64,000 nucleotides of DNA from Prosopocoilus inquinatus (taxonomy: Eukaryota > Arthropoda > Insecta > Coleoptera > Lucanidae): the NCBI GenBank assembly GCA_036172665.1, contig CM069878.1:20222501-20286500 (forward strand), read 5' to 3'. A program made the translations under genes and the position numbers. This document shows, piece by piece, positions 16,771-40,848 of this stretch; the stretch's first letter is position 1; every line of letters begins with the position of its first letter. The notes under the pieces are model-generated. The model did not search any database. It saw nothing but the letters and a program-made list of their open reading frames with translations, and had not been told where the DNA came from.

Positions 16771-17104
16771 TGTGGCGAGCCGCTCAGTACTACGTCACGC
16801 TGAAGGCGTCAAGAAGTCGGTTCGCTGTTATGCGTCATCGGCCATCACGCCACCGGGGCCTACATCGAACAGACTAGACTTTTCCAGCGTTAGAGAATTC
16901 CAGACGGCAGCAAATGATATAAAATCGGCCGAAGTTGACTCAGCAGTCAGTCGAATTCGAACAGCGATCGTCGAAGTTAGATTTTAGTGTGAAAATAAAT
17001 TGTTACAAATAAATTAGTTTTTAAGCTTTATTAAATTACGGTTAAGTTTTTATCGAGTGTTTTATTCGTTTAAATAAATAAATTTAAACCCTAGAAACGT
17101 AACA
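16771..17104 (+). repeat. Gypsy element 1, 5' LTR
   Basis: Starts TGTGGCGAGCC and ends ACGTAACA, with TG..CA ends, and matches 23125-23458. It is followed at 17105 by GTGGTGTCGGTGTGCGGG, the expected place of the primer-binding site; the tRNA was not determined. Confidence 0.95.
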
Positions 17105-17203
17105 GTGGTGTCGGTGTGCGGGTTTGTGCAAATAAATAAACAATTTAAAGTAAATTAAATTTAATCAGATTATTAAATAAGTACAGTATCGGAAAAAAAA
17201 ACA

Positions 17204-18883
17204 ATGGCTACGAGAAAAGTGTTGTTGAAAGACTTAAAAGTGGCCGAATTAAAAACCGAATTGGAAGAACGAGAGTTAGAAACCTGTGGTTTGAAACGCG
17301 CTCTTCAACAGCGTCTCCGATGCGATTTGTTGACAGCTGGTGAAGATCCAGAAACGTTCCTTTTCGAAATTTCGTGTGGTCCCGCCGATTTTAATAAAAT
17401 CTTGAAGGATGAATTTCGAGAACAATCCAGAAATTTCAAGGACGAACTTCAAGAACAATCCAGAAATTTGGACGCGATGTTTCTAGAACAATCTGGAAAT
17501 TTAGAGAAAAAACTTCTAGAACAATCTGGAAATTTCAAGAACGAACTTCGAGAACAATCTGGAAATTTCAAGGCCGAACTTCGAGAACAATTCAGAAATT
17601 TAAAGGAGAAGCTTCTAGAACAATCTGGAAATTTCAAGGACGAACTTCGAGAACAATCCAGAAATCTAGAGGAGAAGCTTCTAGAACAATCTGGAAATTT
17701 CAAGGACGAACTTCGAGAACAATCCAGAAATTTGGACGAGAAGTTTCAAGAACAGTCTGGAAATTTAGAGAAGCTTCGAGAACAATCCAGAAATTTAGAG
17801 GAGAAACTTCTAGAACAATCTGGAAATTTCCAGGACGAGCTTCGAGAACAATCTAGAAATTTAGAGGAGAAGCTTCTAGAACAATCCGGAAATTTGAAGG
17901 GTGAATTTCTAGAACAGACGAAAGGACTCGAAGATAAACTGGTGGTAAAAATATCGGAAGAAACAAGGAACCTGCAAGAAAATGTGGAGGAAATAATATT
18001 CCAGCAGAATAACAAAATCAAAAATCTGGAACAAATCATGGCGGGGTTGCGAATGTTCGGGGATCAGACACCAGTACAAACACTAGAAAATAATGAAACC
18101 CGAATTGTGGAAGAACCAGCAGAAAATTCGAAATTGAAAATAAAACCACCAACGTTCGATGGAAAGTCTTCTTGGCCCAACTACTTCAAACAGTTCGAAG
18201 CAGCAGCAAAGGCGAACAGATGGACGGCCAGCGAAAAAGCGACTTCGTTAATTGTCGCCTTGAGAGGGGACGCTATCGATGTGCTACAGACGATGTCGCC
18301 AGAGGAACAAGAAGACTTCAACAAGCTGGTGAATAGGATGGAAATGCGTTACGGACAGGCCCATCTGACCGAGGTATACTATGCGCAGTTGAGGAATCGC
18401 TGTCAGAAATCCGGAGAAAGTCTTCAGGAATTCGAAGCGGACGTAGCGCGTCTGGCCCAGTTGGCATATCCCACAGCTCCTGTTGAATTCCTCAAATGTT
18501 TGACGGTGCAGACCTTCATAGATGGAATCCGTGACCCAGACAACCAGCAGGCATTGAGAATGACCCATCCGAAGACGTCCAAGAACGCATTGGCTTATGC
18601 CTTGGAATTTGAAGCAGCGAGACGAGTTTCAAGAGGGCATGTCAAGGTGCGAGCGGCTATGGACTTCCAAGAGGAAGAAGAGGAAGAGTCCGCCAACGCC
18701 AAGGTGGGATCTGCTAATAAGGGGCAATTCAAGGAATATGCCACCGCCGAGGATGTTCGCCGCATTGTGGAACAGGTCAAGCAGAAGAAGCCGCTGGTGT
18801 GCTGGAATTTCCAGGAGGAAGGTCATGTTCGTAGGCGATGTCCAAAACCCAGACAGGATCCAAGGAAGCCACAGTTAAACTAA
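17204..18883 (+). CDS. gag: Gypsy element 1 Gag with SAP-like N-terminus and coiled-coil repeats
   Basis: The 559-residue Gag forms the particle that packages element RNA. Residues about 8-45 resemble a SAP motif (VAELKTELEERELETCGLK..L..RL), known from nucleic-acid-binding proteins. Residues about 70-242 are 16 tandem 11-residue units of the type KLLEQSGNFKD / ELREQSRNLEE, one of them lacking a residue. They are encoded by 33-bp DNA repeats and predict a long hendecad coiled coil. Residues about 311-475 are a Retrotrans_gag-like capsid region. The zinc knuckle at 533-546 (CWNFQEEGHVRRRC) has Phe in place of the second Cys. The start follows an AAAAAAAACA context 99 bp after the LTR. Gag overlaps pol by 46 nt. 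Confidence 0.93.
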   Translation: MATRKVLLKDLKVAELKTELEERELETCGLKRALQQRLRCDLLTAGEDPETFLFEISCGPADFNKILKDEFREQSRNFKDELQEQSRNLDAMFLEQSGNLEKKLLEQSGNFKNELREQSGNFKAELREQFRNLKEKLLEQSGNFKDELREQSRNLEEKLLEQSGNFKDELREQSRNLDEKFQEQSGNLEKLREQSRNLEEKLLEQSGNFQDELREQSRNLEEKLLEQSGNLKGEFLEQTKGLEDKLVVKISEETRNLQENVEEIIFQQNNKIKNLEQIMAGLRMFGDQTPVQTLENNETRIVEEPAENSKLKIKPPTFDGKSSWPNYFKQFEAAAKANRWTASEKATSLIVALRGDAIDVLQTMSPEEQEDFNKLVNRMEMRYGQAHLTEVYYAQLRNRCQKSGESLQEFEADVARLAQLAYPTAPVEFLKCLTVQTFIDGIRDPDNQQALRMTHPKTSKNALAYALEFEAARRVSRGHVKVRAAMDFQEEEEEESANAKVGSANKGQFKEYATAEDVRRIVEQVKQKKPLVCWNFQEEGHVRRRCPKPRQDPRKPQLN

Positions 18884-21800
18884 GCCGGGTCGGTGCAGAG
18901 GGGCAAACGTCGACCCGTATTCAAAGGCCCCCAAAGACGAAAGCCAACCAAGTAATATTCCTACGGCAGTTAACCAGCAGTGTCTTCGTGGATGTTACCA
19001 TTGATGACATTCCTCACACCATGTTGTTGGATACGGGTGCGACGAAGACCATCCTAAGACCCGACGTCATTAAGTCATCTGGACGCACCGAGCCGACCAA
19101 GTGGAGACTGAAAACTGCAACTGGAACATCAGCAACTGTCCACGGTGAAGTAGAGGTTATCATCAACATTGGTTCAACTCCAATAAAACACCGTGCACTG
19201 GTGGCAGATATAGAGGACGAGGCAATTTTGGGCATGGACGTCATGTGTGCCCACGGGTTCCAATTGGACTTAAAGCGTGGCGTGATGGCGGTCAATAATG
19301 AGGAGTTGGTTCTACATCAACGAGGGGACGTGGCCGCTCGAGTAGTCCTCGCTGAAGACGTTGTATTACCCAGCAGGACTGAGGTTCTCGTCGACGCAAA
19401 ACTGGACGGTGTTTTTCAAGATGGGCAAGTCATTATGGTTGAACCTAATACTGATGATCAAAGGATTGGAAGAGGAGTCCTCGTTGGGAAAATGTTGTTG
19501 ACGGCGAAGAAGGAAGTACCTGTCCGCCTGATGAACGTCAATTGTTTCTCCGTCAATATCAAGAAAGGAACCATCTTGGGAAGCTGCACCATGGTGTCCT
19601 CCATCTCCCGCCAACTTGAAACAAACGTGCCAGAACCGAAAGTCCCAATGAAGTTATGGGAAATGGTTATGTCAACAGCTCAGAAATTGACTCCAGACCA
19701 GAAGATAAAAGCAAAGAATCTGATCGGCCGTTATCAAGATGTATTCGAGGTAGAAAATGGATCCAAGGGAAGAACTGATGTCGTGAAACACAAAATAGAG
19801 ACTGGAGAAGAAAGACCTATCCGTCAAGCTCCAAGGCGATTACCGTTGGCGAAGCGTGAGGAAGCGGAACGCATTATTCGCGAGATGGAAAAGGATAATG
19901 TGATAGAACCATCAAGCAGCCCGTGGGCGTCACCAGTAGTGCTTGTGAAGAAGAAGGATGGGTCCACCAGGTTCTGTGTAGACTACCGGTTACTCAACAA
20001 TGTCACCAAGAAGGACAGCTATCCCCTGCCACGGATTGATGATACCCTGGACACCCTGGCCGGCTCAAATATCTTCTCAACTCTGGACTTAAAGAGTGGA
20101 TATTGGCAAGTGGAGCTGGCGCCCGAAGATCGAGAAAAGACGGCGTTTTCCATTGGAATGGGTCTGTGGCAATTCACAGTGATGCCATTCGGATTATGTA
20201 ATGCCCCAGCGACATTCGAGAGGTTAATGGAGACGGTTCTGAAAGGTCTGTCCTGGACAACGTGCATGGTGTACCTTGATGACATAATTGTCGTGGGAAA
20301 GACGTTCGACGACCACCTAAGGAACCTGGAAGGAGTGTTCCAGCGGCTTCGCGGAGCTGGACTAAAGCTTAGCCTCAAGAAGTGTCACCTGTTCCAGAAG
20401 GAGGTGAATTACCTGGGGCACATTGTTAATGGAAATGGAATCGCCGTGGACCCTGTGAAGATTCAGGTGGTGAAAGACTGGCCAACTCCCAGAAATAAAC
20501 ACCAAATAAGGAGTTTCCTTGGCCTGTGCACTTACTGTCGGCGCTACGTTCCTGGATTTGCAGACATTGCTAAGCCGTTGACAAAACTCACTGAAGAAAG
20601 TCGTCCATTTGAATGGGACCAACAGTGTCAAATTGGCTTTGAACGACTAAAGCAATACTTGATTAGTGCTCCTGTTCTGAGTTATCCTCTCCCGGAAGGC
20701 AAATTCGTCGTGGACACAGATGCTAGCAACGTTGGGATTGGTGGCGTACTCTCCCAGATACAAGAGGGGCAAGAGAAGGTGATCGGCTACTTCAGTAAAG
20801 TCCTATCAAAGCCGGAACGAAACTATTGCGTCACAAGAAGGGAATTGCTAGCCGTCGTAAAAACGATAGAACACTTCTACAAGTACTTGTATGGTAGACG
20901 CTTCCTGCTGAGGACCGACCACGCCGCTCTAAAATGGCTTCTCCGTTTCAAGAACCCAGAAGGGCAAGTTGCACGATGGATCGAACGACTTCAGGAGTAC
21001 GATTTTGAAATTCAGCATCGGGCAGGAACTAGCCATCGAAATGCCGATGCTTTGTCGAGAAGACCCTGTGCCGAAGACTGTAAGCACTGTAGTCGTTTGG
21101 ACGAGAAAGTAGCCACGACTGCGAGGACAGCCATAGTTGACGACAAATGGCAAGACGAAGAACTGCGAAGAGACCAGAAGAACGACCCGGATTTGAAATT
21201 AGTGCTAGAATGGAAAAGCAGGGACGCGAGGCCTACCTGGGAAGAGGTAGCACCATGTGCACCGTCCGTAAAATCATACTGGGCGCAGTGGGACTCCATA
21301 GTGTTGGATCGTGGTCTTCTGAGACGAAGCATAGAGAATCAGGAAGGCATGGAACAGAAGACACAGTTACTGATCCCCAAGAATAGGGTGCCAGAAGTTC
21401 TGAGGGAACTTCACGATGGAACTTCCGGAGGGCATCTGGGAGTTAAGAAGACTATGGAGAAGGTGCGCGAAAGATTTTACTGGGTGAACTGCAAGGAAAA
21501 CGTGAAAGATTGGTGCAGAAAGTGTGCAGTCTGCGCAGCCAGTAACGGCCCCCACAGGCGGGGTAAGGCTCCCATGAGACAGTACAACGTTGGAAGTCCT
21601 TTTGAGAGAGTTGCCATCGATGTAGCCGGCCCGTTTCCAGAAACGAAAGGTGGAAACAAGTACATCGTCGTGGTAATGGACTACTTTAGTAAGTGGGTTG
21701 AAGCTTACGCCCTACCTAACCAAGAGGCAGTCACTATTGCGGAAGTCCTTGTCAGGGAATGGATCAGTCGGTATGGTGCACCTATGGAACTGCATTCAGA

Positions 21801-23157
21801 CCAAGGAAGGAACTTTGAATCGGCCTTGTTCAAGAACGTGTGTACTCTGCTCGGCGTACGAAAAACTAGAACAACTGCACTCCACCCACAGTCGGACGGA
21901 ATGGTGGAAAGGTTCAATAGAACCATCAACCGACATTTGTCCAAGGTCGTTTCCAATCATCAGAGGGACTGGGACACGTACATCCCCCTGTTTCTAATGG
22001 CATACCGCTCATCTGTTCATGAGACAACAGGGGAGACTCCCGCGAAAGTGGTATTCGGGCGAGAGCCGAGACTGCCCTGCGACCTGAAGTTTGGTGGGAG
22101 GCCTGGCGAAGTCTCTGCCGACGAAGATTACGTGAGCAAATTACGCAGGAAAATGGATGACATCCACAACCAAGTGCGTCACAATATACAGACGGCCAGC
22201 GATCGGATGAAGGAGCACTATGACATCAACGCTCAACACGGGGGATACCAACCTGGAGCACTGGTCTGGCTTTATAACCCCCAAAGACGTCGAGGCCTCT
22301 CCCCAAAATTGCAGACCTCTTGGGAAGGTCCTTACAAAGTGATGAAACGGATCAACGACGTCGTTTACCGCATCAAGAAGGTCCCCCATGGCAAACCCAA
22401 AGTAATCCACTTCAACCGGATAGCCCCTTACCATGGAGAAGCAGATGAAGGGACAGTACAAAGGGCGCAAGTTTCCGAAGTGAACTTCGAAACCTTAATG
22501 TCTCATCACGCCGAAGGAAGCAAGGCACGGTTTGGAGTGACCACGGAGAAGCAACAAGATCTCTTTAAAGTGCCACTGGAGTACAGTCTGGCCCACTGCG
22601 TAGCAGAAGACCTGAAAATGTCCAAAGGAATCGCTCAGGTGTTTAGGAAGAAATTTGGTCAACTCGACGAGCTACGAAGACAGCATCCCGTGGTAGGCAA
22701 GAGCTTGCAGATCATTGATTCGACGGCAGATCGGAGGCGCCACGTGCATTATTTAGTCACTAAGAAAACATCAAGCGGTAAACCTGACTATCAAAGTATG
22801 TGGAGAGCCCTATATAGCCTGAGGAGACAGCTAATAGAGAACCACCAGATGAAGTTAGCCGTCCCCAAATTGGGCTGCGGATTGGACGGACTAGACTGGA
22901 GAGTAATACGAAGCATGCTGGAAGTCATCTTCCACAGAACGGGAATTGAAGTCCTAGTCTGCAGCCATCACCCACAGGCAACAGTCAGCAACAGTAAAAC
23001 CGTAGACTGCTACTTCTTCCAGACGGGAAGTTGCAAGAATGGGCCAGCTTGTAGATTCCGACATCCTCCTTCAAGACTATCACCAGGAACATTTCGAGAC
23101 GAAACGTTTTTAAGAAGGGAGCAGTGTGGCGAGCCGCTCAGTACTACGTCACGCTGA
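18838..23157 (+). CDS. pol: Gypsy element 1 Pol with C-terminal macrodomain and CCCH finger
   Basis: A 1439-residue polyprotein in the -1 frame relative to gag. The aspartic protease is at LDTGAT (Asp 65). RT carries YLDD at 479-482 and RNase H starts near Asp 626. Integrase has an HHCC finger followed by Asp 928, Asp 988 and Glu 1024, giving a D,D-35-E spacing. After the usual end of integrase (VIHFNRIAPYH), residues about 1241-1377 are a macrodomain like TARG1/OARD1 (SLAHCVAEDLKMSKGIA, LVTKK, GCGLDGLDW). They keep the Lys and Asp used by that enzyme to remove ADP-ribose from proteins. Residues 1391-1409 form a CCCH zinc finger (C-x7-C-x5-C-x3-H). The stop lies 33 nt inside the 3' LTR. A TAG at 18832 sits just before the ATG. 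No classical slippery heptamer was found, so reinitiation or unusual frameshifting is possible. Confidence 0.95.
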   Translation: MSKTQTGSKEATVKLSRVGAEGQTSTRIQRPPKTKANQVIFLRQLTSSVFVDVTIDDIPHTMLLDTGATKTILRPDVIKSSGRTEPTKWRLKTATGTSATVHGEVEVIINIGSTPIKHRALVADIEDEAILGMDVMCAHGFQLDLKRGVMAVNNEELVLHQRGDVAARVVLAEDVVLPSRTEVLVDAKLDGVFQDGQVIMVEPNTDDQRIGRGVLVGKMLLTAKKEVPVRLMNVNCFSVNIKKGTILGSCTMVSSISRQLETNVPEPKVPMKLWEMVMSTAQKLTPDQKIKAKNLIGRYQDVFEVENGSKGRTDVVKHKIETGEERPIRQAPRRLPLAKREEAERIIREMEKDNVIEPSSSPWASPVVLVKKKDGSTRFCVDYRLLNNVTKKDSYPLPRIDDTLDTLAGSNIFSTLDLKSGYWQVELAPEDREKTAFSIGMGLWQFTVMPFGLCNAPATFERLMETVLKGLSWTTCMVYLDDIIVVGKTFDDHLRNLEGVFQRLRGAGLKLSLKKCHLFQKEVNYLGHIVNGNGIAVDPVKIQVVKDWPTPRNKHQIRSFLGLCTYCRRYVPGFADIAKPLTKLTEESRPFEWDQQCQIGFERLKQYLISAPVLSYPLPEGKFVVDTDASNVGIGGVLSQIQEGQEKVIGYFSKVLSKPERNYCVTRRELLAVVKTIEHFYKYLYGRRFLLRTDHAALKWLLRFKNPEGQVARWIERLQEYDFEIQHRAGTSHRNADALSRRPCAEDCKHCSRLDEKVATTARTAIVDDKWQDEELRRDQKNDPDLKLVLEWKSRDARPTWEEVAPCAPSVKSYWAQWDSIVLDRGLLRRSIENQEGMEQKTQLLIPKNRVPEVLRELHDGTSGGHLGVKKTMEKVRERFYWVNCKENVKDWCRKCAVCAASNGPHRRGKAPMRQYNVGSPFERVAIDVAGPFPETKGGNKYIVVVMDYFSKWVEAYALPNQEAVTIAEVLVREWISRYGAPMELHSDQGRNFESALFKNVCTLLGVRKTRTTALHPQSDGMVERFNRTINRHLSKVVSNHQRDWDTYIPLFLMAYRSSVHETTGETPAKVVFGREPRLPCDLKFGGRPGEVSADEDYVSKLRRKMDDIHNQVRHNIQTASDRMKEHYDINAQHGGYQPGALVWLYNPQRRRGLSPKLQTSWEGPYKVMKRINDVVYRIKKVPHGKPKVIHFNRIAPYHGEADEGTVQRAQVSEVNFETLMSHHAEGSKARFGVTTEKQQDLFKVPLEYSLAHCVAEDLKMSKGIAQVFRKKFGQLDELRRQHPVVGKSLQIIDSTADRRRHVHYLVTKKTSSGKPDYQSMWRALYSLRRQLIENHQMKLAVPKLGCGLDGLDWRVIRSMLEVIFHRTGIEVLVCSHHPQATVSNSKTVDCYFFQTGSCKNGPACRFRHPPSRLSPGTFRDETFLRREQCGEPLSTTSR

Positions 23158-23458
23158 AGGCGTCAAGAAGTCGGTTCGCTGTTATGCGTCATCGGCCATC
23201 ACGCCACCGGGGCCTACATCGAACAGACTAGACTTTTCCAGCGTTAGAGAATTCCAGACGGCAGCAAATGATATAAAATCGGCCGAAGTTGACTCAGCAG
23301 TCAGTCGAATTCGAACAGCGATCGTCGAAGTTAGATTTTAGTGTGAAAATAAATTGTTACAAATAAATTAGTTTTTAAGCTTTATTAAATTACGGTTAAG
23401 TTTTTATCGAGTGTTTTATTCGTTTAAATAAATAAATTTAAACCCTAGAAACGTAACA
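23125..23458 (+). repeat. Gypsy element 1, 3' LTR
   Basis: 334 bp, identical by eye to 16771-17104. It contains the last codons and stop of pol. Confidence 0.95.
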
Positions 23459-24311: not shown

Positions 24312-24666
24312 TGTCACGAAGACTCTTTCGGGACAGCTGTATATAATTGTTAACGGGTCACTTTGCTGAGCTACGGATAATTGAAAAATTGCGGGGAGAG
24401 AGTCGAGGTGGCACCGTCCAAGGAAGGTGGGCTCGGCAAGGTGGCTCCATAGCGGTGCTCAATAAAGCCTAAAAGTGTTGTGGGGAGTTTTTTTCTGAAG
24501 AGGACCTTCCTGTTTCGAGACAAGACCGGGATGAGGTAAGAAATCCATTTCTCCATCGGGTAAACTACCCCCTAGTGCCTTTAGCCCATACCTGAGCGGT
24601 ACCTTCTACCTAGAGCTACGTTACCCCAACGGCTACCTTTATTAAGAGCGCACAGAGAGTGTGACA
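24312..24666 (+). repeat. Gypsy element 2, 5' LTR
   Basis: 355 bp, from TGTCACGAAG to GAGTGTGACA, so the ends carry TGTCAC/GTGACA inverted repeats. It matches 35672-36022. It is followed by GTGGTGGAGGCGCC, the probable primer-binding region. The 600 bp from 24667 to 25268 are an AT-rich leader without a supported ORF. Confidence 0.93.
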
Positions 24667-25268
24667 GTGGTGGAGGCGCCTTTTTGCTCGAAATTTTGGG
24701 CTAAAGACACATTTAATGCAAATAGTGTTACGTAGGCTGAGAGCTTGGGGCGCGGTCGCAAAAGTACTTTTAAGGTATTTTACCTAACAGAAAAACTATG
24801 AAGGTAATCGGTTATAATAAACCTCGGCCAATTTATTAAAATTATGCGTTCCCTGTGATAATTGATGGGAATAAGAAAAAAATATTTCAGCAAATATAAA
24901 AGAATAATTAATTAATAGCTAATAATTCACACGTAGGCATAATTGGATATCGCCGGTTGATGACATGTTGACACACATTTTAGGCGAATAAATGCGCTCT
25001 TGTGCAACGTAGCATTATACGAATGAAGTTTCAATAAATGTATAATAATTATATCCATGGCATTAGTGGAATTGCCCTAAGAATTCAGCATAATTGCGAC
25101 ACATACATTATTCGTTTTCTGATTGTTTAATTTAATAATTCGCACAAAGGAATGTGGAATCACATATTTTAAATTTAACTTTATTGAGAAAGTTTAAGGG
25201 AATTAATTAATTAATGTATGTAAAATAAAAATAATAACCAAATTAACGTACATTAAAAGTTAACGTAA

Positions 25269-27052
25269 ATGGCCGAGGGACCGCGAACCCGATTAAGAAG
25301 CAAAGAGGAAGATAAATCGGAAAACATTAATGAAGACAAAGGAAGGCGGGATCTTTACATAAATCTCGATAAAAAAGCATTCTTTCCTACCGCGAGAAGC
25401 ACCTTGACGCCACGGTCTCCAACGACAAAGGTATTGAATTTGGAGGAGACATTAATCAGCGAAGAGGAAGAGCCTACAATTTCGGAAAATTTAGACGAAA
25501 GAGTTTTTACAAACCAGAAACAAATTTCGGATTTAAAGCAAACGCCAAGATTTCCTCGAAAGCAAATCCAAGTCGAGAATCAAGAGGAACAAAAAATCGA
25601 ATCTCTTGAACAAGAGAAAATAAAGGATTCAGGAAAACAAAAGAAAATACCAATCCCTCCAAAATTACCGGAAATCAGCAAACCGGATACAGAAAAGCAG
25701 AATCGCAAAAATTTTTGTGATTCCATAAAATTCCAGCAAGAACAAATTCTACCTGCACCGGTTCCCGTTCAACAAAATAAAATGTTTAATCAAACAGGGG
25801 CTGTACCTAAACGAAGTAGATTGATAAATCGAGACGAAGAATTGAGTATAGATACAGAAAGCTACGGAAGAAAATCGGACTACATCCGGAATAGTAGATA
25901 CCTAGAAGACACAACGGCGAATAAAACTATCAGTATGTTTTTCCAGACTAGAAAAGCAATACCGCCAAAATTTTCAAAGCCACCAAGTTTCAATCCAAGC
26001 GTAGATGACCTAATACAGTTTGTGAAAGAATATAAAATGGCAGCTAGGATGAACGGTTGGGATGAGATGGAGCAATTAGGATATCTATCAAATTCACTGA
26101 AAGGAAGTCCTTACATTTGGTTTGAAAACCTAATGAAGAAAAATCCTAATGCCGAGTGGGAGTGGACAATTCAGCAATTAAAAAATAAATTTCTAGGTCC
26201 TAATTTTGAACTTAGGTTACAGGAGAAATTGATATGTAAGAAACAAAAAGTAGATGAAACCCTTACGGAATATTTTTATTCGTTCTTGGAAATAGCCGAC
26301 GATTGTAACCCACAAATGTCGGAGAAAGAAATCCTGCAAAGGCTAATATCAGGATTACTACCGTATTACAGACACATGGTGTGTATAAAGAGTCCAAATA
26401 GTTTGAAGGAATTAGAATACTTCGTGAACACAATTGAAGAGACCGAAAAAGAAGGTAAATCGGTTTTGTATCAAAGTACCCAAAAGTTCAAGAAAGAGTA
26501 AATGTCGAAGATATTCGTCAAGGGGCGACAACAGACGACCGAAGGGAAACGGAGAATTTAATAAATATGTTGGTCGATAAACTTCAATTAAATGGGAGAA
26601 ACCAAGAAATACTTAAGGGAAGAACTGTAATACCGAGCCACCATTTTAATAAAAATTTTCATCATAAAAACTATTTTCAAAAACAAAGTCAACACGTCAG
26701 AGATCATCTAAAAAAGGAGCAAATTGATGGTCGCGTACCTAAGGCACCCACCTGCCAAGTCTGTGGGTATATGGGACACACGGCAATAAATTGTAAACGG
26801 AGGAACCTCAGTTATAATAACACTTCAATTAATCCTTATGCAAACAATAGAAGAGGAATGGACATACAAATTTGTCAATGGTGCAACTCAAAGGGCCACG
26901 AGGCGTCAAATTGCAGAAAATTGGAATATAAATTAAAAAATCGTGGAAATGTATTCACAAACCAGGTGCAGAACAAGATTTATAAAAAGAACAACGAAAA
27001 AGAAACAACCGCACATTTAAATGGTACCGGACAGGGCTGCAAGAGACCCTAA
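25269..27052 (+). pseudogene. gag: Gypsy element 2 gag (one frameshift)
   Basis: The first 410 codons (25269-26501) have a charged, Lys/Glu-rich N-terminus followed by a Retrotrans_gag-type capsid region (from about KPPSFNPSVDD to the end). A frameshift near 26497 breaks the frame, which continues in another phase to 27052. That part has two complete CCHC zinc knuckles (CQVCGYMGHTAINC and CQWCNSKGHEASNC) typical of nucleocapsid. No coiled-coil repeat like that of element 1 is present. Confidence 0.88.
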
Positions 27053-27124
27053 ACTCTGTCCGAAATTTTTATAAAAGCGGGTCTCTACAAAATAAAGTAG
27101 CAACTCCTAAACCGACGAGCAACG

Positions 27125-27570
27125 AAAGTTTAAATTTCAATTGTAGTTCAATACCAATTTGCATGAAGAATACAAATATCCTGACAACAACAGCTCGTCT
27201 GGATGGTGAATTGATAGAAGTAATTCTGGATACGGGAGCGGCATTTAATATAATTACCAAGCGCTTTGCAAAAAATATGGAGCGATTAGAGGATCCTCCA
27301 ATTTTAAGCACAATTAATGAAAAAAAAGTTAATCCGTTAGGTATAATAAATACAAAAATAAATTTACATAATACAATTTTCCATATTAGAGCGTTAGTTG
27401 TAGTAATTTAACAGCGCCATTAATCCTCGGATGCCCTTTTCTTAGAGATCAAAGGGCTGATATTAATTTTGCTAATCGATCGATGACTTTAAAAAATATT
27501 ACTACGGAGAAAATGAAAGTGCAAATAAAACAAAGAATTGGACACGGATGGCTAAAGATACCAAAATGAA
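27125..27570 (+). pseudogene. Gypsy element 2 protease (frameshifted)
   Basis: An aspartic protease with the active-site motif LDTGAA (about 27226-27243). Its C-terminal part (APLILGCPFLRDQ) is in a different frame after a break near 27410. A TGA at about 27567 closes the second part. Confidence 0.85.
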
Positions 27571-27599
27571 AAAAAACATGATTTAACATTTGAAAATTT

Positions 27600-28283
27600 T
27601 GAAAAACAAAAACTTAATGCGATCACAAAGAAAATAAAAGTATCGCCGAGGGATTTATTTGATATGCCAAATACTTATAATCTAGCTCATTGTGTAGCCG
27701 AAGATTTGATGATGTCGAAAGGTATTGCCAAAGAATTTAAACTAAAATTTAACAATGTGGATCAACTTAAACAACAAAATCCGCAGGTGGGAAGATTAAC
27801 CTTCCTTAAAAAAGGGGAAAGGCATATTATTAATTTAATTACAAAAAAACGTTCGCAGGACAAACCAAACAACATTTGTTAAAAAATAAACTGAAAAAAG
27901 TGGCGATGCCAAAGATAGCATGTGGTCTAGACGGACATAAATGGGAAGATGTAGAAAGGATGTTACAATACGTATTTGAAGGAACGGACATTGACATTGT
28001 AATTTGTACGGGAACACAAAGAAATAAAGTGAAAGAAGAAGGCAAATACAAAAAAACAAAAAAAGAAGAATTTTGGAATGAATTACCTAAACAGGAAATT
28101 GTTGACGAAATTGTAAAAAATAAAATAATAAAAGTAAATATCTTGGAAGATGTTACAATTGAGAAAAGTAATAGTAAATACTGTAATATAAAATTTTCAG
28201 AAAACATAAATTATGAACAACCTATATTATTTTGTACCTTCATGCCCAGAGGTCATTTCCTCTTTAAAAATAAACTTAATTAA
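27600..28283 (+). pseudogene. Gypsy element 2 macrodomain (TARG1/OARD1-like) and pol connector
   Basis: A macrodomain of the same type as in element 1 begins at about 27652 (NLAHCVAEDLMMSKGIA) and runs to about 28013 (FEGTDIDIVIC). The catalytic-type Lys (LITKKRS) and Asp (ACGLDGHKW) are retained. A frameshift with a small deletion near 27870 splits it. Unlike element 1, it lies between protease and RT. The tail from 28014 to 28283 resembles the connector that precedes gypsy RT. Family knowledge says such domains bind ADP-ribose and remove it from proteins; a role in the retroelement is inference. Confidence 0.85.
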
Positions 28284-28318
28284 TTAATCTAAATTAATTA
28301 AGTGATAATTTTTCGAAA

Positions 28319-31200
28319 TTGGGAGAGCTCAAATTATGTATTTCTAATTATGGAACAACTGCAAAAACGATTCGGAAGAATACAGCTTTAGGTTACATCG
28401 CATTAGATCACAAAAACAAAATAAAAGAAATGTTAATTACAGAAGATAACTCTTTTGATGTTAACGTAACAGACGAAGAGGAAGCGGAAAAATCATTTAA
28501 TATAAATAAAGACCTTCCCAAAGAGGATATAAAAAATATTAAAAAGTTATTAGAAGAATATTCCAACATAATGGCTTGGAATAATAAATTGTTAGGAAAA
28601 ACTAATCTGGCAGAGCACACCATCAATATTGGACAGAATCCACCAGTTAGATCACGTGCTTATCGTGTAAGTATCAAAGAGCGAGATATAATCAGACAGC
28701 AAGTGGAGGAAATGTTGGAATTGGGAATTATAAGACCGTCGGACAGTGAATTTGCATCGCCAGTGGTCCTAGTAAAAAAGCCAGACGGATCATTCAGATT
28801 TTGTATAGATTACCGGAAACTTAACACCATCACTACGAAATCATCTTATCCATTACTCCTAATAGATGACATAGTAAATTTTTTGGGCGGAAATTAATAT
28901 TTTTCAACGTTGGATCTAAATAGTGGATACTGGCAATGTCCAGTAAAAGAAGAGGATAGGCATAAAACAGCATTTATAACTAATGATGGTTTATATGAAT
29001 TTAATCGGTTAAGTTTTGGACTCTGCAATGCTCCAAGTACGTTTCAAAGGTTAACCGATACAATATTTAAGGACCTGAAATGGAAAGAAGTGGCGGTGTA
29101 CCTAGATGATGTTATAGTGGTTAGTCGCACTATTGAAGAGCATTTAGGACGTCTTAAAAAAGTTTTCTCGTGTATAAAAAAAGCCGGCCTCACCTTAAAA
29201 CCATCTAAATGTCATTTTTTCATGGAAGAATTAAGGATTTTAGGATTTCAAATCTCCACCAAAGGCATTTTACCTGATGATTCAAAAGTCGAAGCTATAA
29301 GAAACTTTCCGGTACCAAAGAAGGTAAAGGACGTACAAAGCTTTCTGGGACTTTGTAATTTTTTTAGAAGATTCGTGGATAATTTTTCGAAGCTTGCCAA
29401 CCCCTTATACAGTATAATAGGTGCTAATTATAAATTTGAATGGAAAGAACAACAAGCAGAGGCTTTCGAAAATCTGAAGGAAAAATTGACAAGTGCCCCT
29501 GTACTAAGACACTATAATCCGAAAGCGGAAACTGAATTACGAATTGATGCAAGCCAATCAGGTCTTGGAGCAATTCTGGTACAACGAGATGAATCCACAA
29601 AAAAGTTTCATCCTATATCATTTATTTCGCGCACCCTCACAAAATACGAGAAAAATTATCCTATTACGGAGCTAGAATGTTTGGCAGCAGTATGGGCTGT
29701 CGAATATTTTAGAACGTATCTGTGGGGACTGGAAACCTTCAATATAATTACGGACCATCATGCTTTATGCTTATGGTCATTGAAACTTATGGAGTATTCA
29801 TATAAAGTATTTCATAAGAAGGGAACGTCCAATAAAGATGCGGACGCATTGTCAAGATATCCCTGCGTTTTAGGCACAGATAAAGATGAGAAAATAGCAC
29901 TCGACGTACCAACTTTTATCGCCAACTCAGAAGACTTAGAGCGTTGGCAGACGGAAGATCCGCGATTACAAGAAATACGGGCAGCAGTAGAAAACAGTGA
30001 TTACGGAGGACCTGCGCTACAGAGAATGTCAAAAAATTTCGAAGTAATAAAAAATGTTTTATATAAGAAAGATCCAGCATCTATTACTGATAATAAACTA
30101 CTGGTAATACCTAGAGCGCTGAAAGAAGAAATCCTGAACAACAACCACAGAGATCCCATAAGCGGTCATTTGGGATTAACGAGGACGTTAGACAAAATAA
30201 AAAAGAGATATTTTTGGGAAGGTATGAAGCAGGATATTACAAAATTCATAAGAGGTTGTCCAGAATGTCAGATCCGTAAAGGACCAACGAACCAAAAACC
30301 CGCAGGATTATTACAACCTATACATGTGAAAGAACCATTCTCAATGGTACGAATTGATTTAGTAGGCCCATTTCCAAGAAGTTCGGTAGGATCTAAATAT
30401 ATAGTGGTAGCCACAGACTACGCTACAAGATGGGCGGAGGCAAAAGCCTTGCCGAGTGGAAAGGCTGAACCTGTTGCAAAATTTATTGTAGACCAGATAA
30501 TTTGCCGTCATGGATCTCCGGAAAAAATTTTAAGCGACCGAGGAGCGGTTTTTATGTCAAAATTAGTTTCTGAAATTTTGAGGTTAGGCACAGATAGTAC
30601 ATTCACAACAGCTTACAAACCGTCAACTAATGGGTTGACGGAAAGATAAAATAAAACAATAGTTGATATGTTAAGTAAGTATACATCTACCTCACAGAAA
30701 GATTGGGATGTTTACCTTCCGCACTGCATATTTGCTTACAACACAACGAGGCAAGAAGCAATTAAATGTAGCCCATTTTCATTGATATACGGTCGGGAAC
30801 CCATACTTCCAACGGATGCTGAGTTATGTCAACCAATGCTCACAAATTTCAGTCTCAGAAGTCAGCAAGTAATACAAGAACTACGACAAAATGCTAAAAA
30901 GAACATCGAGACAAAGCAAGAAAAAGATTAGAAAATTTTCAACAAAAAACATCGACATGTAAGCTTCGCGGTAGGAGACAAGGTAAAACTAAGAAATTAT
31001 GTACAAGTTGGCAAATGCGAGAAATTACTGCCGAAATATTTTGGACCATTTATTATAACTGAAAAGAGAAACAATCTAAATTACGTAATTAGAACGGGTA
31101 CAGGAAAAAAGGCCAAGCAAGACGTAGTTCATGTGTCCAGGCTAGCACCTTTTTATGAACAATGGAATAAAAAAGATTTGAGGGAAAATCAACCAGAAAA
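28319..31200 (+). pseudogene. pol: Gypsy element 2 reverse transcriptase, RNase H and integrase
   Basis: RT begins in the first piece (28319-28897; FASPVVLVKKPDGSFRFCIDYR). After a frameshift near 28896 it continues with YLDD (about 29100) and RNase H (RIDASQSGLGA, ITDHHAL, DADALSR). Integrase has the HHCC finger, first Asp (RIDLVGPFP), second Asp (LSDRGAVF) and the Glu in NGLTER. An in-frame TAA follows at 30646 and another stop near 30929. The C-terminal SH3-like domain (VGDKVKLRNY..GPF) leads without a gap into the segment that carries the USP domain. RNase H appears to lack a short segment after ALCLW. Confidence 0.9.
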
Positions 31201-32409
31201 TCTCAATGAAACTAAGACAAATGTAGATTGTATCAAACATGAGAACGACAATAAAAATAGAAAAACGAAGTATTTCCATAATAAAAATAATAATCAAAGT
31301 GAATTATCACGAAAGGACTCAATGCGTCGAAGTAAAAAAGTAAACAAATCGATGCAAACATCAAATCAAAAAGTTTCCTCGTTAGAATATATGAAAGAAA
31401 ATATAAATGAAAAAAGGAAAGTAGATGAACCTATTTCTATTCAAATTAAAGGTCTAGAAAACAAATCCTATGTCTGTTACTTAAATTCGATTATTCAATG
31501 CCTTTTGAGCATGAGTCCAATAAAAAATTATTTTTTAGAAAAATCAACTGAACTTAGAAAGCATAGATCAAATTTGACGTCTGCCTTTGTACGGCTTATA
31601 AGAGATTTAAGAGAAGAGCCAAAAAAATTAAGTGTAAGCTCCTTGGGCATAAAAAAAGAATTGGAAAAAATAAACCCGTTGTTTAAAGGTGAACAATATC
31701 AAGATGCTCACGAATGTTTGCGTTTCATTTTGCAACGAATTCACGACGAGACAAAAAATCCACTATCATCAGATGTTACGTCAATAATAACAAATACATT
31801 CTCAGGTTCATATACATCATATTTACTCTGCTTAGAATGTGGTAATAAAACTGCGGTAACAACTTCCTTTTAGGATCTTTCTCTTCCGGTTCTTTCTACT
31901 GCGGAAAGTACTCTTGAAGATTGTCTGGATAATTTTTTCAGTGAAAAAATATTAGACGAAGAAAATAAGCCAATATGTTGGACTTGCAGAAGAAAAACTA
32001 AATGTAGAAAATTTTTAAAACTTCAAACTTGGCCAAAATAATAATTATCATAATTCATTTAAACAAATATGTGTGGTCAGGACAAGAATTAAAAAAACTT
32101 TTAAAACATGTAAAATACCCAATTGAGGGATTAAATCTAAAAAAATATCTAGAAAATCCAAATACAGGTAATCCAATATACAAATTATGGGCTCTGGTAG
32201 AACATAAAGGCGTGGATAACAAAGGTCATTATGTCGGCTACATTAAATTTCCGCAGCAAAAGGAAACATGGATTAATTGTAACGATAATGACGTTAGTTT
32301 TGTAAAAAGAAACGATATTATTAAAAAGAACGCGTATTTACTTATTTATGAATTGAATATTTATTTGTATTATAATTTTAGAATAATCCAAAAAATTACA
32401 CGAGAGTAA
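31133..32409 (+). pseudogene. USP-type deubiquitinase domain fused behind integrase
   Basis: The frame starts as the end of pol (VHVSRLAPFYEQ), passes a Lys/Asn-rich linker, then from about 31440 shows the landmarks of a ubiquitin-specific protease. These are a Cys box (IKGLENKSYVCYLNSIIQC), a Gln-Asp-Ala-His-Glu box (QYQDAHE), two CxxC pairs (CLEC and CWTC), and a His box (HKGVDNKGHYVGYI). A final NDNDV..AYLLIYE follows. These enzymes cleave ubiquitin from proteins. An in-frame TAG at 31871 and a frameshift near 32040 make this copy nonfunctional unless bypassed, but every catalytic landmark survives. I know of no standard retrotransposon domain of this type. Confidence 0.88.
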
Positions 32410-32410
32410 T

Positions 32411-34345
32411 ATGTGGCCACATATTAGAATTATCACGGTGGTCTTAGTATACGGAAGACGAATCCCGACGAACGCTGAACTGGAAAAGGGATTTGAACTG
32501 CATTCGATGGAAAGATCTACTGGTATATTCTATAAAAAAATAGGTAATTTATATTTGACAGATACTTTTTGGAATATCGTAACGTTTGTAGACTTAGACG
32601 TATTTGAAAGAAAGTTTATTCAAATTCAAAATCTTTTTGAAGATACAAAAAAATTATGTTATTATGAAATTTTAAAAAAGAGCGAGCTTTGTGGAAATTA
32701 CATTAACTTAATCACTTCAACAATTAACCGCATACAATGGGAAAAACAACTAATTCCAAATCTAATAGGACATAACATTGTAAAAAGAGGTTATTTTGAT
32801 GCTATAGGGAAAATATCAAAAACACTTTTCGGTACATTAACAAATGAAGACGCAGAAAAATTTGAACAGGCAATACAAGAAGTTCAGGTAGATCAAAATA
32901 AGTTAACTAATATCCTTAAAAATCAAACATTAGTAGTAATGTCAACTTTAGATTCATTGAACAATACATTGGGGCACATTGATCATAATGAAAAGCTAAT
33001 TTTTGGAAATTTTGAATCAATTAAACAAATTTTGAATAGTACTACAAAAGAGGTCGATTTCTTATATAAGATAGACAGAAGACTTAAAGATCACATGGTA
33101 ATATTATCTGTTATAATTGATCAATATCAACTGGAAATAATAAATTTGATCAATATAATTGTAGCTGCGAAGCAGGGGATTTTTCATCCATTATTTATCA
33201 CTCCGTCAACGATTCTAGAAAAATTGAAATCTATCTCTGGTCTCATACCTTCAGGACTTAAATTTCCAATTGACATCTATAACACAAGCTCAGTAGAACC
33301 CTTACTAAAAGTTAGTTGTTTGGACATTTTTTTCAAAAATTCTAAATTATGTGGAGTTATTAAATTCCCTTTAGTACACATTAATTCGTTCACGCTATAC
33401 AAAATGACACCGATTCCAATTAGGCTACACAAAAGTGTTTTTGTAGTAATAAATTTGAATTTTGCTTACTTAGCAGTAAATGATTTACATTCAAATTTTT
33501 TTCATATGAGCACAGAAGAAAAAACAAAAACAATTTTAGTGGAAAACGATATTTATATTTCGCTTAAAGAAAAATTATTAGTAACAACATCTAAGACTTC
33601 TTGTGAAGTTCGCTTACTGACCCCTACAGCAATAATTCCAAATGCATGTGAGAGACATGTAATAAACATTAATCAAACACAGTTCATTGAATCAGAAACA
33701 ACGAATTCATGGATTTTTGTAGCACCAATTTCAGAAATTCTAACCTTATCATGTACTTTTGAAAATGATACAAATATTTTAAAACACATAAAGTTAAATG
33801 GTACAGGTAAACTTTGGTTAGCCAAACAATGTAAGGCATTTTCTGAGAATATAATATTAAATGTAGTTAAAACAAAACAATTTCAAATGAAATACCAGTT
33901 CAGCACATCGTGGGATATTAAAGAAAATTTTAATGCAGATACTAGTTTAATCTCACCTTTGACAGATGATTTAAAACAACTAGATTTAACAGCTTTAGAA
34001 GAAATAATGAATGATAAGAAAACTCTCGTAGATAAAAGTAAAAAATTAAAGTCGGTTCTTAATGACATTAAACAATTGCAAGTAGAAACTCATGCCAAAC
34101 AAAAAGAAACAGGAGAATTGGTAACACTTTATTGTTTAGTAATTGTATTTCTCACAGGAATCGGGATATATGCGGGAAAAAAGTTAAAATGCTTCAAATG
34201 TAACAGAAAAAATAGAGTACCTAAAAGAGAAACTATTAGCCTCAGAGAATATGAAGAGGGAACATTCATCTTACCCGATGGTAGAAAATGTACAGTAAAC
34301 CTAAAGGAAGCTACTTCTCGCGAAAATCTGGATTGTTTGAACTGA
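32411..34345 (+). CDS. env: Errantivirus-type envelope protein (F-protein-like)
   Basis: An open frame of 644 residues directly after the USP part, in the position of gypsy/errantivirus env. It resembles insect endogenous-retrovirus envelopes related to baculovirus F fusion proteins. A Lys-Arg pair at 125-126 could be a cleavage point, followed by a glycine- and hydrophobic-rich stretch (127-143). A long ectodomain has scattered cysteines and Asn-linked glycosylation motifs. One membrane span lies at about 570-589, with a 55-residue basic cytoplasmic tail. The N-terminal hydrophobic stretch is short for a signal peptide, so the true start may lie upstream through splicing. The frame is unbroken although the rest of the element is decayed. 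Confidence 0.85.
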   Translation: MWPHIRIITVVLVYGRRIPTNAELEKGFELHSMERSTGIFYKKIGNLYLTDTFWNIVTFVDLDVFERKFIQIQNLFEDTKKLCYYEILKKSELCGNYINLITSTINRIQWEKQLIPNLIGHNIVKRGYFDAIGKISKTLFGTLTNEDAEKFEQAIQEVQVDQNKLTNILKNQTLVVMSTLDSLNNTLGHIDHNEKLIFGNFESIKQILNSTTKEVDFLYKIDRRLKDHMVILSVIIDQYQLEIINLINIIVAAKQGIFHPLFITPSTILEKLKSISGLIPSGLKFPIDIYNTSSVEPLLKVSCLDIFFKNSKLCGVIKFPLVHINSFTLYKMTPIPIRLHKSVFVVINLNFAYLAVNDLHSNFFHMSTEEKTKTILVENDIYISLKEKLLVTTSKTSCEVRLLTPTAIIPNACERHVININQTQFIESETTNSWIFVAPISEILTLSCTFENDTNILKHIKLNGTGKLWLAKQCKAFSENIILNVVKTKQFQMKYQFSTSWDIKENFNADTSLISPLTDDLKQLDLTALEEIMNDKKTLVDKSKKLKSVLNDIKQLQVETHAKQKETGELVTLYCLVIVFLTGIGIYAGKKLKCFKCNRKNRVPKRETISLREYEEGTFILPDGRKCTVNLKEATSRENLDCLN

Positions 34346-34798
34346 TCAGCAAACATCTAGATCATTCTGATTAGTGGTTATCTTTGGGTGAACAATCAAA
34401 AATAGTAGAGTATGCTAGCTTCAAAAAATAAAAATAAATATAAATTTCCTCTAGTTACGTAGGTATCCGATTTAAAATTTAGATGCTTATATTGTAAAGC
34501 GAAAACGAGAACGTAAATATGTACTTAATGGGACTGGCCAACCTGTTACAATGAGATTATTACATTCTCGTCTAAGCTAATTTTAATATAGTTTGTACTG
34601 AATTGAGCACCAAAATATAACTTTAAATTTAACTCATTGTAAAAAAGCCAAACTGATACTGCTTTTCCTTACATGGGACATATGGATACATCATTGATCT
34701 TCAACGTTTCTGGAGTTCGGAGAAGCCAACCGCCAGTGAATCTTTTCCTTCAATCAAATCTGCAACTTCAACTGTGGAACGTAAACCAAGGTCCCACC
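34346..34798. other. Element 2 3' region after env
   Basis: Non-coding part of gypsy element 2 upstream of the inserted hammerhead repeat. It continues at 35348-35671 to the polypurine tract at about 35660-35670. Confidence 0.5.
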
Positions 34799-35347
34799 AA
34801 AATATTATCAAACAAAAACAGCTGTCCAGAGGCTGCTCGAGGTTCTCACTGCAATCAAAAACGATTTGCACAAAATTTTTCTAAAATCTTTCATTATGCT
34901 TTGACAGCAAGCATGGCCGCCTTGCATGGGGGACTCATTAGGAGCAAATCCCGCTTCAATTTGTCTATCCTACTGCAATGTTAGGTCAAAAAGCGATAGT
35001 AAGATGTCGCTATTTTATATGTTCATCATTCTTACATCGCATTTGCGAATAAATTGGGCAAGTCGTTTTTGGTCTGCAGTGGGAATGTCGAGCTACGTTT
35101 CTGCTGAAGAAGCCCCAAGCAGGGCTGAAACAGCTGTCCAGAGGCTGCTCGAGGTTCTCACTGCAATCAAAAACGATTTGCACAAAATTTTTCTAAAATC
35201 TTTCATTATGCTTTGACAGCAAGCATGGCCGCCTTGCATGGGGGACTCATTAGGAGCAAATCCCGCTTCAAGTTGTCTATCCTACTGCAATGTTAGGTCA
35301 AAAAGCGATAGTAAGATGTCGCTATTTTATATGTTCAAAATATTATC
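34799..35347. mobile_element. Hammerhead retrozyme-like element, copy d (inside gypsy element 2)
   Basis: Flanked by the 11-bp direct repeat AAAATATTATC (34799-34809 and 35337-35347). The body is in plus orientation only. It starts abruptly within the ribozyme (stem III, about 34818), runs for 312 bp to the same point at 35131, then continues to the GTCGCTATTTTATATGTTC end. It is therefore a 5'-truncated partial dimer. It interrupts gypsy element 2, so it is younger than that insertion. Confidence 0.85.
35075..35165 (+). ncRNA. Hammerhead ribozyme in copy d
   Basis: Full core CTGAAGA, stem II AGCCC/GGGCT, GAAA, stem III ACAG/CTGT and GTC triplet, with predicted cleavage after 35138. Sequence and stem I pairing match the copy at 11780-11870. 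Confidence 0.85.
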
Positions 35348-35671
35348 GTTTCGTCAAAGTGATCTAGAGCCGTCTCATCAGACCACGAAAGATATATGGA
35401 GGATAATAAATGTTGTTTTTTGCACCACCGAAGGAATAAAGGAAATGGATAATTGGCCTCATAGCGGATGTTATTAACAACGAACATCAAAAGAGAAGAG
35501 ATCAAGCAAAAATATAAACAAAATATTATATAAAATTCCATGATAGGTTAAAGCTGTAGGATTTTTTTTGGCTGTAGAACATGTATGCATACTGCTGTGT
35601 CGAATAAGCTTCGTGACGATAACCTTGTAAGATAATATGCTCGGAGGGCATATTCCTCGGCGGGGGGGAAA

Positions 35672-36022
35672 TGTCACGAAGACTCTTTCGGGACAGCTGT
35701 ATATAATTGTTAACGGGTCACTTTGCTGAGCTACGGATAATTGGAAAATTGCGGGGAGAGAGTCGAGGTGGCACCGTCCAAGGAAGGTGGGTTCGGCAAG
35801 GTGGCTCCATAGCGGTGCTCAATAAAGCCTAAGTTGTGGGGAGTTTTTGTCTGAAGAAGACCTTCCTGTTTCGAGACAAGACCGGGACGAGGTAAGAAAT
35901 CCATTTTTCTATCGGGTAAACTACCCCCTAGTGCCTTTAGCCCATACCTGAGCGGTACCTTCTACTTAGAGCTACGTTACCACAACGGCTACCTTTATTA
36001 AGAGCGCACAGAGAGTGTGACA
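35672..36022 (+). repeat. Gypsy element 2, 3' LTR
   Basis: 351 bp, TGTCACGAAG to GAGTGTGACA. It differs from the 5' LTR by about ten substitutions and a 4-bp deletion near 35832. Confidence 0.93.
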
Positions 36023-39678: not shown

Positions 39679-40848
39679 ATGGAAATAGCAAACGCTGTCG
39701 GAGCAAATTCAGGTGCTCCGAGGACCAGCAGAATTATGCTGGAAGGAGTGGGAGCTAGAGTTATAAGGGGCCCTGACTGGAAATGGGGCAAACAGGTTAC
39801 AGCTTTCAGTTCCTTTTTTTGAAAACATTAACGACGTGCATTTCAGGATGGCGGAGAAGGCCATGTAGGTACTGTGCGGAATTTTGAGTCCCCGGATGAA
39901 GTTGTCGTTGTATGGGATAATGGGACTGCTGCGAATTATCGCTGCTCGGGTCAGTACGACTTGCGAATATTTGACAGTGCACCGACCGGTGTTAAACATG
40001 AGGGGACCATGTGCGATACATGTCGGCAGCAGCCGATTTTTGGGATTCGTTGGAAATGTGCAGAGTGTGGAAATTATGATTTATGTTCCATATGTTACCA
40101 TGGTGACAAGCATCAATTGAGGCACCGTTTCTATCGGATTACCACACCAGGAAGTGAGCGTGTGTTCTTGGATACTCGCCGGAAAAGTAAGAAGATTGCT
40201 GTTCGTGGCATTTTTCCGGCAGCACGCGTTGTTCGTGGAGTCGATTGGCAATGGGAAGATCAAGATGGTGGCAATGGGAGGAGAGGCAAAGTACAGGAAA
40301 TACAAGATTGGTCTGCTGCAAGCCCACGTTCAGCTGCATACATCGTTTGGGATAACGGTTCAAAAAATTTGTATCGTGTAGGCTTTGAAGGAATGGCAGA
40401 TTTAAAAGTGGTTAATGATGCTAAGGGTCAAACGGTTTACCGTGACCATCTACCATGTCTTGGAGATCAAGGTTCAGGGCGTTCTGGCCCTCCTGATTTA
40501 AAGATTGGAGACCAAGTCAATGTTGACTTAGAATTGGAAATTGTGCAGTCTCTTCAACATGGTCATGGTGGATGGACTGATGGAATGTTTGAGTGTTTGA
40601 GTAGTACTGGCACTGTGGTTGGAATTGATGAAGATCACGATATAGTCGTAGCTTATAATAGCGGCAATCGTTGGACGTTTAATCCGGCAGTGCTCACAAA
40701 GGTTGCAGCTCCTTCCGTAGGAGAAGGCTTCAATGAAACTCCTCAACAGCAATTCGCAGTTGGCGATGTTGTGCAAATATGTTCTGACTTAGAACGTATA
40801 AAGATGTTGCAACGAGGACATGGAGAATGGGCAGATGGAATGACTCCT
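39679..40848 (+). CDS. mib1: Mind bomb (Mib1) E3 ubiquitin ligase, N-terminal exons
   Basis: Mib1 is a RING E3 ligase that ubiquitinates Notch ligands (Delta, Serrate) and promotes their endocytosis in signal-sending cells. Exon 1 (39679-39795, 39 residues) joins exon 2 (39847-40848, 334 residues) across a 51-bp intron (CAG|GT..TTTCAG|GAT). The 373 residues contain a first MIB/HERC2 domain (about 22-85), a ZZ zinc finger (about 92-138; CDTC..CAEC..CSIC), and a second MIB/HERC2 domain (about 158-238). The ligand-binding repeat region starts from about 255. The frame ends at a clear donor (CCT|GTAAGT at 40849). The ankyrin repeats and RING fingers are not seen downstream, so the next intron exceeds 23 kb or the gene is incomplete here. 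No stops or frameshifts are present. Confidence 0.95.

Follow-up and report, generated by a model that had tools for sequence, protein, structure and literature searches.

In a 64,000-nucleotide stretch of the Prosopocoilus inquinatus genome (contig CM069878.1, positions 20,222,501 to 20,286,500 of the forward strand; hereafter the window), a Ty3/gypsy retrotransposon with long terminal repeats (LTRs), element 1 (16771-23458), encodes a Pol polyprotein whose tail is a TARG1/OARD1-class macrodomain followed by a CPSF30-like CCCH zinc finger. Element 1 belongs to a young, high-copy Ty3/gypsy family. We propose, with a probability of roughly 0.6 and on the basis of sequence and predicted structure, that an ancestor of this family gained both domains at the C-terminus of Pol and that the macrodomain would serve as an ADP-ribosylhydrolase delivered by Pol. 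The two LTRs of element 1 run from TG to CA, are identical across 334 base pairs (bp) and have ATAT at both flanks; these LTRs with a short target duplication, together with a Gag that precedes protease, reverse transcriptase (RT), RNase H and integrase in that order, place element 1 in Ty3/gypsy. The open frame of Pol extends about 240 residues beyond integrase, crosses the polypurine tract and reaches its stop 33 nucleotides (nt) into the 3' LTR. The parts of element 1 are as follows (open reading frame, ORF; amino acids, aa).

16771..17104 (+), 5' LTR, 334 bp, TG..CA, exact direct repeat of 23125-23458
17204..18883 (+), Gag ORF, 559 aa, with a SAP domain at residues 8-40, a 33-nt repeat array and a C-terminal zinc-knuckle region
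17225-17323 (+), SAP domain of Gag (PF02037, 25.9 bits, cut-off 23.9)
17378-17973 (+), 33-nt repeat array in Gag
18838..23157 (+), Pol ORF, 1439 aa, with protease, RT, RNase H, integrase, macrodomain and CCCH finger
18988..19242 (+), aspartyl protease (PF13650)
19945..20427 (+), RT (PF00078, E 2.5e-37)
20692..21000 (+), RNase H (PF17917)
21373..22428 (+), integrase with H2C2 finger, core and p58-type C-terminal domain (PF17921, PF00665, PF22938)
22558..22968 (+), TARG1/OARD1-class macrodomain, Pol residues 1241-1377
22762..22764 (+), codon of Lys1309, alignment partner of TARG1 Lys84
22885..22887 (+), codon of Asp1350, alignment partner of TARG1 Asp125
23008..23064 (+), CCCH zinc finger, closest to the fingers of CPSF30, Pol residues 1391-1409 (PF00642)
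23113..23124 (+), polypurine tract directly 5' of the 3' LTR, recognized by eye; the Pol frame reads through it
23125..23458 (+), 3' LTR, its first 33 nt shared with the end of pol

By eye, the 33-nt repeats of Gag encode coiled-coil-like units of 11 aa whose register apparently varies between copies.

A first-pass annotation, made from the sequence alone, had claimed that the Pol frame runs past integrase into a TARG1-type macrodomain with its catalytic Lys and Asp and then into a CCCH finger, and each of these points was confirmed. Domain searches found both domains in the extended frame, and profile and structure searches each matched the macrodomain, so that a no-match outcome did not occur. 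The predicted fold of the Pol macrodomain agrees with that of human TARG1 within 0.8 Å across 132 residues, and TARG1 is its closest fold, the two nearest being TARG1 and the macrodomain of the DarG antitoxin. In TARG1, a protein of 152 aa, Asp125 is catalytic; Lys1309 and Asp1350 of Pol match TARG1 Lys84 and Asp125 in the alignment. A passage of PMC8501950 reports that the TARG1 K84A mutant does not rescue DarT toxicity. Human TARG1/OARD1 (C6orf130; PDB 4j5q, 4j5r, 4j5s) shares with the domain of element 1 the whole macrodomain fold and the equivalents of Lys84, Asp125, Gly43 and Gly123, but it is a free-standing host enzyme, while the domain of element 1 is fused to Pol and is about 38% identical to it. 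DarG, a bacterial toxin-antitoxin partner, is 24% identical to the domain of element 1. The MacroD-type macrodomains of corona-, alpha- and iridoviruses have the general fold in common, but the domain of element 1 is of the TARG1 class instead; the assignment of viral macrodomains to the MacroD class is found in a passage of PMC7729036. The generic Macro domain model PF01661 does not define the TARG1 class: the window tail scores 19.4 bits against its curated cut-off of 22. Among other carriers described below (P, database proteins; L, loci), L132, L133, L134 and P0142 reach that cut-off, L131 (19.1) and P0145 (21.9) stay below it, and the macrodomains of P0116 and P0125, for which PF01661 is not listed, were found by a custom hidden Markov model. 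The CCCH finger scores 28.3 bits against PF00642 (curated cut-off 20.5). Its closest solved relatives are the zinc fingers of CPSF30 (CPSF4), which has five fingers where element 1 has one, and the best single-finger match has an independent E-value of only 0.005; the CCCH part of the predicted structure has pLDDT < 50.

The fusion is a property of the family in the window's own genome (650 megabases). A search with the tail scored 150 of 1455 candidates, and the matches listed were 94-100% identical, 127 of the 150 being free of stops. Because such a list favors good tails, we switched sampling to RT matches and hand-picked 40 copies down a list of 147 (scored from 4267 candidates). Macrodomain sequence was present in all 40, whole in 39 and partial in one, and so was the CCCH finger; thus further copies with the same fusion do exist, and copies lacking the domain, which the first-pass annotation would have taken as a sign of chance insertion, were absent from this sample. 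LTR pairs in 20 fetched stretches were 98.5-100% identical in 13 and lower in three (86, 89 and 96%); the remaining four held no pair, two of them because the stretch had been cut on the wrong side. Protease to CCCH finger lay in one frame in 4 of 18 stretches (L011-L028, not all full length) but not in the other 14. It therefore appears that the family is young, as claimed from the identical LTRs in the window, and that decayed copies are common. Some copies of the family have a single frame of about 1900-2010 aa, the length of Gag-Pol, and others one of about 1430-1540 aa, and the relation of the Gag and Pol frames apparently varies within the family. A search of viral contigs matched 62 loci, of which one reached 39% identity and the others no more than 32%.

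Conservation of the macrodomain is clear when diverse Pols are compared at the sequence level. Among 19 such Pols the mean pairwise identity was 0.78 for RT, 0.51 for protease (from 121 of 171 pairs), 0.51 for the macrodomain, 0.42 for CCCH (from 91 of 171 pairs) and 0.26 for the linker. Of 43 aligned macrodomains, taken from retroelements, viruses and insect proteins and chosen among 162 proteins with a match, 42 retain the catalytic Lys and 41 the Asp. The near-invariance of these residues and the levels of domain identity favor long maintenance. That the tail is merely a captured host sequence, carried without function in a recently expanded family, is very improbable and already disfavored: the domain is open and alignable among Pols with RTs only about 78% identical, its catalytic residues are near-invariant, and the same enzyme class recurs at different positions in elements distant in the RT tree. 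What speaks for such a passenger is weak recent constraint, the ratio of nonsynonymous to synonymous differences (pN/pS) being 0.64 for the macrodomain with a bootstrap interval that exceeds 1 (0.38-1.39; 39 RT-selected copies plus the window).

The within-genome comparison weighs against the proposed hydrolase in several further respects. In a smaller sample of 20 RT-selected copies plus the window, macrodomain pN/pS was 0.69 (0.32-1.44), with RNase H (0.22), integrase (0.28) and CCCH (0.23) all below it, and in the tail-ranked sample RT (0.17), protease (0.35) and Gag (0.33) were lower as well; when each named domain is judged from samples that were not selected by the domain in question, the macrodomain therefore shows the weakest constraint. 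In the macrodomain, 34 nonsynonymous changes were counted against 22 synonymous ones (P 0.005, 0.025 and 0.053 at transition bias 1, 2 and 3), and those common to at least two copies (6 synonymous, 8 nonsynonymous) were not significant (P 0.08-0.18). A stop lies inside the macrodomain in 2 of 20 RT-selected copies. In the P0171/P0175 lineage, which belongs to the same RT clade as element 1, the Asp and further residues of the pocket are gone, in P0171 also the Lys; the macrodomain of this lineage, retained but probably inactive judging from these replacements, provides a natural comparison. For the CCCH finger, pN/pS was 0.20 (bootstrap 0.05-0.61; 40 copies plus the window), with 11 synonymous and 9 nonsynonymous changes (P 0.001-0.007). 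Taken together, the dN/dS comparison called for by the first-pass annotation gave a divided answer: residues conserved among diverse Pols, and a borderline, weak constraint on the macrodomain within the genome (omega about 0.5-0.6). A pN/pS of 0.188 (20 copies plus the window), which indicated strong purifying selection within the genome, was withdrawn as biased because the copies had been ranked by similarity of that same tail.

The relatives of the tail are found largely in beetles and metagenomes. A protein search with the tail matched 131 proteins, and among the 120 listed most were from Aromia moschata and others from Callosobruchus and metagenomes, the closest named relatives being the beetles Aromia moschata and Callosobruchus maculatus; a second protein search added Molorchus minor. 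Among the best 120 of 7965 proteins matched by RT, 19 carried the macrodomain (one partial), all with at least 73% RT identity. For the RT tree we started from 136 proteins with an RT match, set aside 29 whose RT is repeated or broken and 6 that are short, and used 52 of the remaining 101, keeping all 29 macrodomain rows and thinning the 72 rows without one to 23; Aromia and Molorchus proteins are absent from this sample. The clade that holds element 1 comprises 25 rows (support 100/96) and consists chiefly of metagenome proteins, with a single Callosobruchus protein. Twenty of the 25 carry the macrodomain, 12 together with the CCCH finger and 8 without a whole one. Since most members of one subclade have lost the CCCH finger, or hold a decayed one, and have kept the macrodomain, the finger seems dispensable. 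The five rows without a macrodomain also count against the proposal, and on this point absence of the domain from relatives does occur, some rows being truncated. Two of them, P0163 and P0172, are short proteins; by eye, P0168 finishes in something like a CCCH finger; and the Pols P0169 and P0173 stop not far beyond integrase, which may reflect either losses or fragments. Outside the clade, 412/297-type arthropod gypsy elements have the same Pol order as element 1 and RTs up to about 71% identical among the matches listed, but no macrodomain was found in those listed.

Across LTR elements, TARG1-type macrodomains are found at four different junctions of Pol. One lies before protease in P0116 and P0139; between protease and RT in a second element of the window (element 2, described below), L131, L133 and L134, the position of RT in the three loci being inferred from frame length; between RNase H and integrase in P0121, P0125 and P0142; and after integrase in element 1, L132, P0106 (twice), P0146, P0145 and P0148. 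L131-L134 are loci of the window's own genome. In the RT tree the carriers elsewhere form separate placements, namely P0125, P0106, P0121 with P0142, P0116 with P0139 and P0146, and the retrovirus-type P0145 with P0148; the placement of P0106, P0121, P0125 and P0142 is unsure on account of their long branches. P0125 is placed among relatives without a macrodomain, which are 412/297-type elements. Element 1 does not belong to the P0145/P0148 clade, from which long, fully supported branches separate it. All 23 RT matches obtained in the window's own genome with the P0106 Pol as query encode integrase and macrodomain in a single frame, which an internal stop interrupts in one match; this query was not blind, as P0106 itself carries macrodomains. 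A search with human TARG1 scored 150 of 1287 candidates, many of them within large repeated frames, and two short-frame matches, L135 and L136, could be assigned to neither host nor element. The different Pol positions make a single capture hard to uphold, and the independence of captures rests on positions and the RT tree because macrodomain trees are too weakly supported for counting. The fusion in element 1 is real, and an account confined to its architecture is incomplete, as other retroelement lineages carry the macrodomain elsewhere in Pol. We consider it possible, and tentatively suggest, that LTR elements, above all those of insects, repeatedly and independently gained a TARG1-class eraser at four junctions, in one family together with a deubiquitinase in the same Pol frame. 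If so, insect retroelements would be limited by a step of ADP-ribosylation, which might mark proteins for ubiquitylation, and de-ADP-ribosylation would be a general retroelement function equal in rank to the retroviral dUTPase.

The variety of positions also bears on whether the domain could read ADP-ribose rather than remove it, tethering the pre-integration complex from the end of integrase to ADP-ribosylated chromatin or DNA breaks. Macrodomains bind ADP-ribose, chromodomains at the integrase end guide other gypsy elements, the domain directly follows integrase in element 1 and L132, and weak recent constraint would suit such a reader. Elsewhere, however, the domain precedes protease or lies between protease and RT or between RNase H and integrase, which does not suggest a fixed tether on integrase; because the domain does not always adjoin integrase, and with the catalytic Lys and Asp retained as described above, this role is distinctly unlikely.

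For the proposed hydrolase, the macrodomain of element 1 would be translated in step with RT and integrase and would enter the particle as part of Pol. TARG1 acts on acidic residues of proteins; the Pol domain may likewise free element or host proteins of mono-ADP-ribose on their acidic residues, or remove it from DNA or RNA, while the element copies and integrates itself, and the CCCH finger could keep the domain bound to RNA or close to the machinery that processes 3' ends. A narrower role, cleaning the element's own RNA or cDNA of ADP-ribose adducts, is suggested by analogy: dUTPase offers a sanitizing parallel in some retroviruses, and the macrodomains occupy places in the elements like those of retroviral dUTPases. 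As a passage of PMC8501950 states, DNA ADP-ribosylation is reversed both by TARG1 and by DarG, whose folds are the nearest to that of the Pol domain. We regard this role as unlikely.

The first-pass annotation had proposed a counter-defense against antiviral PARPs, which we find rather doubtful. Similar folds occur in insect virga-like and negev-like viruses, invertebrate iridoviruses and Kadipiro virus (Foldseek; VP8 in Kadipiro), TARG1-type macrodomains are present in the RNA virus proteins P0117 and P0150, and a family that seems related to element 2 joins the macrodomain with a deubiquitinase; the presence of similar folds in both RNA and DNA viruses of insects makes a defense role possible. 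Passages of PMC10221186 state, however, that most vertebrate PARPs are absent from insects and that macrodomain activity was lost in insect-specific alphaviruses. Vertebrate-style antiviral PARPs as the source of substrate in insects are a weak guess, and the absence of most vertebrate PARPs counts against the Pol-delivered hydrolase as well. P0144 is an RNA-virus-like polyprotein with a TARG1-type macrodomain by eye.

Element 2 (24312-36022) has the order gag, protease, macrodomain, RT to integrase, ubiquitin-specific protease and envelope, with the macrodomain gene broken in the window copy.

24312..24666 (+), 5' LTR; pair 96.3% identical, TTAT at both flanks
27556..27882 (+), N-terminal piece of the macrodomain, between protease and RT (phmmer TARG1 E 3.2e-15)
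27834..28283 (+), C-terminal piece of the macrodomain, in another frame (phmmer TARG1 E 6.9e-10)
31133..31873 (+), end of integrase, then the N-terminal half of a ubiquitin-specific protease domain (PF00443 E 1e-27)
32411..34345 (+), baculovirus-F-like envelope ORF (PF12259 E 1.6e-29)
35672..36022 (+), 3' LTR

In a seemingly related family, each of the 17 frames (1764 aa) that were listed as macrodomain matches also holds a deubiquitinase, about 3.7 kilobases beyond the macrodomain in one Pol frame; three of the 17 are in tandem. This family resembles element 2 in the Gag end and protease by eye, and the deubiquitinases are about 41% identical. Tankyrase/RNF146-type systems couple ADP-ribosylation to ubiquitylation, and the pairing of macrodomain and deubiquitinase suggests such a link here.

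Retroelements with macro domains have a precedent in fish retroviruses, in which macro domains are extra genes (Basta 2009, as cited in a passage of PMC4977317 and present in the reference list of PMC10499221); these are likewise retroelements with a macro domain as an added cellular gene. The retrovirus-type Pols P0145 and P0148, which end in a TARG1-type macrodomain, may be of this kind, but their RT is far from the clade of element 1 and no CCCH finger was seen in them. No retrotransposon with a macrodomain was found in the literature, judged by titles, abstract openings and passages, with long result lists examined in part, and the portions seen of PMC9967889, PMC4695847, PMC8195603 and PMC12440569 hold nothing on the subject. 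The statement that no described retrotransposon of this architecture was known thus provisionally stands for the literature covered, with the fish retroviruses already in print as a qualification. The viral macrodomains reviewed in PMC7729036, which are of the MacroD class, are interpreted as a means of countering the antiviral PARPs of vertebrates. A different macrodomain class inside several LTR lineages, including those of an insect genome, points to an ADP-ribosylation pathway that acts on retroelements, of which we found no description in the literature, and the recurrence of such a domain elsewhere in other kinds of jumping genes hints at a hidden conflict or a step in the life cycle. 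This raises a testable question, namely which molecules are ADP-ribosylated during insect retrotransposition.

Several proteins met in these searches deserve separate mention. Pols filed under fungi or bacteria, namely P0089 and P0108 (Erysiphe pulchra), P0160 (Klebsiella pneumoniae) and P0148 (a Cetobacterium metagenome-assembled genome), are probably animal DNA contaminating those assemblies. P0112-P0115, P0118, P0120, P0122 and P0123 are proteins of weevils, leaf beetles and sawflies, about 800-1300 aa in length, in which long stretches of low complexity accompany one TARG1-type macrodomain or two; they are possibly host genes or domesticated copies. By eye, other ORFs of the window resemble a DNA-transposon transposase (48728-49705, -) and a BEL/Pao-like Pol fragment (7453-8064, +), and a large ORF at 39874-40860 (+) resembles a ZZ-finger/MIB-HERC2-like host fragment.
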